Assembly: GCA_023251435.1 (NCBI GenBank)
Contig: JAHEYU010000003.1
Coordinates: 87,089-151,088, forward strand
From: Bacteroidota bacterium
GTDB taxonomy: Bacteria; Bacteroidota; Bacteroidia; Bacteroidales; Prolixibacteraceae
Direction: 5' to 3'
Length of the DNA stretch: 64,000 nucleotides
Shown here: positions 57,865 to 58,603 of the stretch, in pieces
Layout of the letters: every line of letters starts with the position of its first letter
Numbering within the stretch: position 1 is the first letter of the stretch
The notes under the pieces: model-generated
Databases searched by the model: none
What the model was told of the DNA's origin: nothing
What the model saw: only the letters and a program-made list of their open reading frames with translations
Translations under genes and position numbers: made by a program

Positions 57865-57901
57865 GTTCAGCCCAGTATGGGCGATCCGCCAATTGGCGGA
57901 T
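57865..57901. repeat. Intergenic palindromic repeat
   Basis: GTTCAGCCCAGTATGGGCGA (57865-57884) is identical to 1989-2008; followed by the perfect palindrome ATCCGCCAATTGGCGGAT (57884-57901). Confidence 0.85.
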
Positions 57902-57965
57902 GGAAGCATGAACTGGGAAAAGATGTTTTTGAAAGATAAAGATTTGAGACAAAAGAGTGTTTAAA

Positions 57966-58541
57966 ACCTTATTTTTTTAAGGTAACCTTAGTAGAAAGTA
58001 ATGAAATATGTAGTCAAACCTTATTACCTAATTTAATGAAAGTTGAGTATAATAACTTGTACACACATTTTGTGTTCACCACATTGCACCGATTGCCTTT
58101 GATTGCGGCGCAACATCGTGAAAGGATTGAGAAATACATGACAGGAATTGTAAAAAACAATGATAGTCATCTGTATGCGATTTATGCAAATCCTGAACAT
58201 GTACATTTTCTTGTCTCAAGATCACAAAAAATTTCGGAAGAAAGTTTGGCCACTTTGGTTGCTGACAGTTCAGAACGATTTATTAATGAGAATAAACTGT
58301 GTCAGGGAAAATTTAAATGGCAGGAAACGTGTTCCGCATTTTCAGTATCAAAAGGAGATGTGGATAAAGTTTGTAATTACATTCTGAACCAGCCGGAACA
58401 TCATAAAAAAGTCACATTTATGGAAGAGTACGAGATTTTTTTGAAATTTTATCAAAAGACGATTCGGCCTCAATAAGTTAATAAGGTTAGAAAACCTGGA
58501 AAGCTGACTTTCTACTAAGGTGGCCAAATAGAAAATAAGGT
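57966..58541 (+). mobile_element. Y1 transposase gene with mirrored flanking inverted repeats (IS200-like/REPtron-like unit)
   Basis: Three inverted-repeat pairs bracket the gene: ACCTTATTTT 57966-57975 / AAAATAAGGT 58532-58541; ACCTTAGTAGAAAGT 57985-57999 / ACTTTCTACTAAGGT 58507-58521; AACCTTATTA 58017-58026 / TAATAAGGTT 58479-58488. Confidence 0.8.
58036..58476 (+). CDS. IS200-like / REP-associated Y1 transposase (TnpA family)
   Basis: HFVFTTLHRLPLI; HUH motif NPEHVHFLVS; KVCNYILNQPEHHKKVTFMEEYEIFLK with candidate catalytic Tyr. Confidence 0.92.
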   Translation: MKVEYNNLYTHFVFTTLHRLPLIAAQHRERIEKYMTGIVKNNDSHLYAIYANPEHVHFLVSRSQKISEESLATLVADSSERFINENKLCQGKFKWQETCSAFSVSKGDVDKVCNYILNQPEHHKKVTFMEEYEIFLKFYQKTIRPQ

Positions 58542-58603
58542 AAAAAAATACAAATGGTGATTGACCTTAGTTACGAATTAAGAGAATATTGAGAAGAAAA
58601 TAA

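Follow-up and report, generated by a model that had tools for sequence, protein, structure and literature searches.

Transposase gene and box units at the locus

The window analyzed here is a stretch of 64 kb (contig C88, positions 87089-151088) from a 5.7-Mb Bacteroidota genome (G000) whose nearest relatives in the public genome set are Prolixibacteraceae. It carries a Y1 HUH transposase gene whose neighbours are a long glycosidase/deacetylase-like ORF and a transglutaminase-like ORF (labels given from sequence appearance). Each flank of the gene is occupied by one unit of about 72 nt, in which ACCTTATTTT, ACCTTAGTAGAAA, and ACCTTATTACCTTA follow each other at fixed spacing, and the downstream unit is inverted (Table 1). 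We refer to ACCTTA as box 1, to ACCTTAGTAGAAA as box 2, and to ACCTTATTACCTTA as box 3.

Table 1. Coordinates of the transposase gene and of the box units, as positions in the 64-kb window.
Feature	Position	Strand	Basis
Left end unit (box 1, box 2, box 3 doublet)	57963..58033	+	R1 match 54.2 bits, E 7.7e-16
Left box 1 ACCTTA (outer)	57966..57971	+	Sequence; conserved in A1; ACCTTATTTT spans 57966-57975
Left box 2 ACCTTAGTAGAAAGT, GTAG inside	57985..57999	+	Sequence; at least 8/10 in 84/92 orthologous elements
Left box 3 doublet ACCTTATTACCTAA	58018..58031	+	Sequence; A1; ends 4 nt before ATG
Y1 HUH transposase gene	58036..58476	+	Pfam Y1_Tnp 1.2e-15; alignment A2; AlphaFold2 model
Right end unit, the left unit in inverted orientation	58472..58542	-	R1 match 42.2 bits, E 4.4e-12
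Right box 3 doublet (TAAGTTAATAAGGT on +)	58474..58487	-	Sequence; first TAA is the stop codon
Right box 2, identical to left box 2 on the opposite strand	58507..58521	-	Sequence; ACTTTCTACTAAGGT
Right box 1 (outer)	58536..58541	-	Sequence; AAAATAAGGT spans 58532-58541

An earlier note on this DNA had described three mirrored motifs on each side of the gene, and on direct reading its motifs, coordinates, and gaps (9/10 and 17/18 nt) proved exact. On the left, where the third motif is AACCTTATTA (58017-58026), the gaps are 9 and 17 nt, and on the right, where its counterpart is TAATAAGGTT (58479-58488), they are 18 and 10 nt. The inverted, multi-site ends are thus borne out by the sequence. The box nearest the gene is a doublet, ACCTTA TT ACCTAA (58018-58031), a fourth motif that had been listed in part, and its mirror on the right starts at the TAA stop codon (58474). 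Two further motifs that had been attached to the element are not part of it: ACCTTAG at 58564 corresponds to ACCTTGAG in the element-less relatives G014 and G015, and the inverted match formed locally by AAGGTAACCTT at 57979 is absent from most relatives. Upstream of the element, two hairpin-like palindromes (AGCCCAGTATGGGCG and TCCGCCAATTGGCGGA) lie at 57868-57904, and an AGCCCAGTATGGGCGA repeat is also found at the equivalent intergenic position in G014 and G015.

The window contains two exact copies of the central 15-mer, and because this 15-mer gives 4 matches against 1.41 expected when up to three mismatches are allowed, the motif alone is weak evidence. The strong part of the evidence is the geometry of the unit. 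Specifically, with a sequence-only model of the whole unit (R1), the two ends are the only matches in the 64 kb, the left end being in the training set of the model and the right end outside it. Comparison with relatives, and not the window alone, excludes a chance arrangement.

The transposase is intact and of core length (146 aa), and its signature comprises H55 and H57, W95-Q96, and Y115---Q119--HH (reading EHVH and YILNQPEHH). In an alignment of 28 relatives (A2), residues H55, H57, Q96, Y115, Q119, H122, and H123 are invariant and W95 is nearly so, the first residue of the HuH motif being E instead of D in most of the clade. The catalytic HUH and Y motifs are retained in 81 of 88 cases. 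The TnpA proteins of ISDra2 and IS608 were the nearest structural matches of the AlphaFold2 model (pLDDT 85.9), with the REP-bound TnpA-REP (4er8) further down. Against the NCBIfam models, the protein scored 46.8 bits for IS200, under the 55-bit cut-off, and 21 of the required 80 bits for REP. The HuH/WQ/Y---Q--HH signature on a core-length protein places it, by sequence, as a subclass 1.2-type transposase. A second copy in the same genome is a paralogue at C116 with 82% identity. Carriage on plasmids was limited to two distant matches (44% and 33% identity), and phages gave no match.

Conservation, co-change, and folding of the two ends

The orthologue set comprised 92 distinct elements, whose transposases share about 64% identity or more. 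Box 2 was present upstream in 84, downstream in 77, and on both sides in 72 of them, as compared to 0.065% with box 2 on both sides among shuffled flanks. Orthologues lacking the flanks, a case that the earlier note had considered against its own reading, are therefore not what was found. Across 118 distinct units, the gaps (with the six- and eleven-letter cores as limits) were 12-16 and 21-25 nt with few exceptions. The carriers are Bacteroidota and Ignavibacteriota, along with isolated bins that carry the labels Planctomycetota, Calditrichota, Chlorobiota, and Thermodesulfobacteriota, for which mis-binning can occur. In part of the clade, GTAAC stands in place of the GTAG of box 2. A search for conserved sequence outside box 1 among 176 units retrieved A-runs only, and boxes of this type were absent from the distant paralogues (35-46% identity). 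In the 3' flanks of two orthologues (L062 and L063), right-end units occur in tandem downstream of the transposase gene.

Variation in box 2 is paired between the ends. Position 5 is T/T in 56 cases and C/C in 14, position 1 is A/A in 64 and C/C in 8, and position 10 is A/A in 10. The mean identity between the left and right box 2 of an element was 11.72 of 13, as compared to 10.44 (sd 0.11, maximum 10.89 in 5000 permutations) when the ends were dealt at random. Since kinship inflates this permutation test, changes were also counted on the protein tree. Three T-to-C changes at position 5 and two A-to-C changes at position 1 each affected both ends, the right end following the left, and position 10 underwent four changes on the left of which about three were matched on the right and almost never the reverse, these events being too few for a significant sign test. 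Among 19 elements with complete units, agreement between the ends was 95-98% in the boxes and 60-65% in the spacers. Taken together, these patterns indicate that the left and right boxes evolve together, and copying of one end onto the other could account for part of the co-change.

No conserved hairpin was detected by RNAalifold over 41 units (0 pairs), and with DNA parameters the single units were slightly less structured than their shuffles (mean z +0.5 and +0.7). A model in which each end folds as a hairpin was rejected on these grounds. On the strand that reads ACCTTA, the spacers are poor in G (3-12%). A long interrupted hairpin does arise when two units stand in inverted order (z -3.4 to -9.4); as it results from the inverted boxes themselves, this fold adds no independent evidence.

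Several inverted REP-like palindromes (AGGGGCGTTAGCCCT, CCCGTAGGG, and CCGCGTAGCGG) were observed in the flanks of a distant Y---Q--HH transposase of the same genome (G000:C101:35612-36481, L023) and of its relatives (L045, L048, L049, and L050). The first of these has seven copies in G000, all of them local to its gene. That distant subclass 1.2-like paralogues within the genus carry hairpin palindromes in place of boxes, several on each flank, suggests that the present clade exchanged hairpins for boxes, or the reverse.

Dispersed gene-less copies and alternative explanations

Copies of the motifs away from the transposase, as predicted by the earlier note, were found with R1 as gene-less units in 38 of 61 related genomes. 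At least 20 units are present in G000 (four of which are the ends of the two transposase copies), and at least 62, 66, 73, and 80 in G009, G011, G019, and G052, respectively. All 20 genomes with a close transposase (at a cut-off of E 1e-40, chosen by us) contained units, as opposed to 18 of the 41 others (Fisher p 8e-6), and the median was 30.5 units with a close transposase versus 0 without. Three genomes without a close transposase are nonetheless rich in repeats (26-35 units) and possibly hold orphan populations: G046 and G049, with none at E 1e-20, and G018, with a distant one only.

In G000 and G009, 30 of 31 neighbouring unit pairs were inverted, and both polarities were observed, the inner boxes being either box 3, as at the transposase gene, or box 1. 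Two box 2 face to face within 20-50 nt were not found in G000. Only 1 of 25 sampled copies lay mostly within an ORF of at least 120 codons, versus 73% of random places. One gene-less pair, with box 3 doublets almost touching, lies about 900 nt before the start of the window (G000:C88:86090-86229).

Miniature copies keep ATGAAAGTCGAATAC... or the last transposase codons, and at C136 of G000 and in its G011 relatives the first codons (ATGAAAGTCGAATACAAC...) are joined to the right end. The locus of the window itself holds a miniature copy in G002 and G007 and no copy in G009, G011, and G015. Two repeat subtypes coexist in G000, namely ACCTTAG (at C43 and C47), which fits the transposase of the window, and ACCTCAG (at C87 and C136), which fits the paralogue at C116. 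In four comparisons of filled and empty sites, the difference exceeded the boxes by 50-100 nt per side and gave no precise insertion boundary, the outer limit not being fixed at these sites because the intergenic DNA differs beyond the boxes. Between C66 of G009 and C114 of G011, ATGA stands on both sides of the insert, which is too little to name a target. Box pairs within MITEs were also seen in G009 (L303, L307, L308, L186, and L183), with outer repeats such as GGTTCTATAACG..TGTGGGTA, and in other MITE families the outer repeats around the box pairs are TTTACTCATTTAGAA or TTGACACTTTT.

An alternative explanation is that DDE-type transposons spread the copies, the boxes being passengers in larger inverted-repeat MITEs, and that the Y1 transposase uses, or used, its own flanks only. 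The outer inverted repeats of several families are in line with it, and the presence of paired families inside larger MITEs means that some copies may have hitchhiked, which may explain part of the copy number. As a general account, however, we regard it as rather unlikely. The outer repeats vary between families while the box units are constant, two copies at unrelated sites (L298 and L300) have essentially only the box-to-box segment in common, transposase codons persist in the miniature copies, and the presence of units tracks that of the transposase. Moreover, genuine REPs have also been reported as dimers inside palindromes (PMC3733652).

There is even less to suggest an ordinary IS200/IS605 insertion sequence with ends that look inverted by chance, which we judge quite improbable in spite of the nearest solved folds, the Pfam match, and the NCBIfam match under its cut-off. 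No single end has a conserved hairpin, and the Y---Q--HH and WQ found here differ from the Y[IV]ENQ and W[TS] of subclass 1.1 (PMC6006769). Likewise, G000 holds two divergent copies (82%) as opposed to the near-identical copies of those elements (PMC6006769), and no tnpB-like ORF was seen beside the gene among the ORFs at the locus. Standard IS200/IS605 ends and a lack of dispersed copies, the outcome that the earlier note had set against its proposal, are contradicted by hairpin-free ends and by the copies described above. Finally, it is very improbable that the boxes regulate the transposase gene as protein or RNA sites (autoregulation or terminator): left box 3 stands right next to the start codon and the stop codon falls within right box 3, but the arrangement is mirrored on both sides, gene-less copies occur at tens of other loci, and neither a hairpin nor an Rfam match was found.

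Proposed mechanism and relation to known systems

These results probably describe a REPtron/TIRtron-like system acting on single-stranded DNA, made up of a subclass 1.2-type transposase, co-evolving hairpin-free units, and gene-less copies. TnpA would act on single-stranded DNA, as its relatives do, and would recognise the boxes there as a linear array; alternatively, it may read the left and right ends once these have paired. In TnpA-REP, a GTAG tetranucleotide helps choose the CT cleavage site (PMC8266576), and W94 and Q95 are among the residues that recognise it (PMC6006769). The transposase studied here retains W-Q, and box 2 has a GTAG adjoining an invariant CCT. By analogy, we infer that the GTAG of box 2 would be the guide and that the units would contain the cleavage sites, with the CCT near the cut. 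We also infer, from the sequence patterns, movement of elements and copies by TnpA, which, acting in trans, would have mobilised or amplified both paired units and copies with internal deletions, the transposase gene itself moving rarely.

A broader and more tentative reading, which we put at slightly under an even chance, is that of a Y1 family that dropped hairpin recognition in favour of linear ACCTTA boxes or end pairing, and populated Bacteroidota and neighbouring phyla with REPIN-like inverted doublets, a repeat class uncatalogued in the open-access literature. The known Y1 transposases (IS608, ISDra2, and TnpA-REP) recognise their DNA in the form of folded hairpins. Whether that fold is required can be tested directly in a widespread clade whose ends are strict and co-evolving but free of hairpins. 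Such a clade would also provide a candidate function and partner repeats for subclass 1.2, left without any in the 2018 survey (PMC6006769), and would account for a set of Bacteroidota intergenic repeats.

Subclass 1.2 has been listed with Y---Q--HH, WQ, and a length of about 148 aa in Cyanobacteria and Bacteroidetes, with no REP and generally no typical IS200 terminal structure reported (Quentin et al. 2018, PMC6006769). Our element agrees with that description in length, HuH, WQ, Y---Q--HH, occurrence in Bacteroidota, and low divergent copy number, but the conserved inverted box array is undescribed in that survey. The suggestion of a distinct subtype made in the earlier note is therefore upheld, as the signature is that of a subclass for which no REP is given.

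With the IS200/IS605 elements (subclass 1.1, IS608, and ISDra2), the system shares the Y1 fold and the catalytic residues, and these are its closest class by sequence. It differs from them in the lack of subterminal hairpins, in its inverted ends, and in a copy number of one or two per genome, the copies being divergent.

REPs are palindromes that carry a GT[AG]G foot. Like REPtrons (RAYTs with their REPs and REPINs; TnpA-REP, class 2), the present system has inverted repeats bordering the gene, W-Q residues, non-autonomous copies scattered between genes, inverted doublets in either polarity, and GTAG. On the other hand, REPs are hairpins with a GTAG foot, whereas the box units are hairpin-free with the GTAG inside a linear box, and Y---Q--HH stands here in place of Y---NP. 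Since the units contain no palindrome, strict REPtron membership is not supported. The resemblance to a REPtron proposed at the outset thus holds for the dispersed intergenic copies, and fails for the hairpin with a GTAG foot and for Y---NP.

De Nocera et al. 2013 (PMC3733652) described TIRtrons as well as REP dimers, which occur in both polarities and also within palindromes. As in TIRtrons and their TIRYTs, a Y1 gene lies here between terminal inverted repeats unrelated to GTAG hairpins, and just as TIRtron repeats occur in some genomes as families of singles, dimers, or clusters (PMC3733652), dispersed families are present here too. Most TIRYTs, however, belong to subclass 2.1, with extra C-terminal DNA-binding-like (HTH-like) domains and GGGGWSAS (PMC6006769, PMC3733652), whereas our transposase is a 146-aa core-only protein of subclass 1.2 type with an ACCTTA three-box array across several phyla, and GGGGWSAS is absent from the A1 consensus of the box units. 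The TIRtron is at least as close a relative as the REPtron: the system is closest to the TIRtron in architecture and to the REPtron in behaviour.
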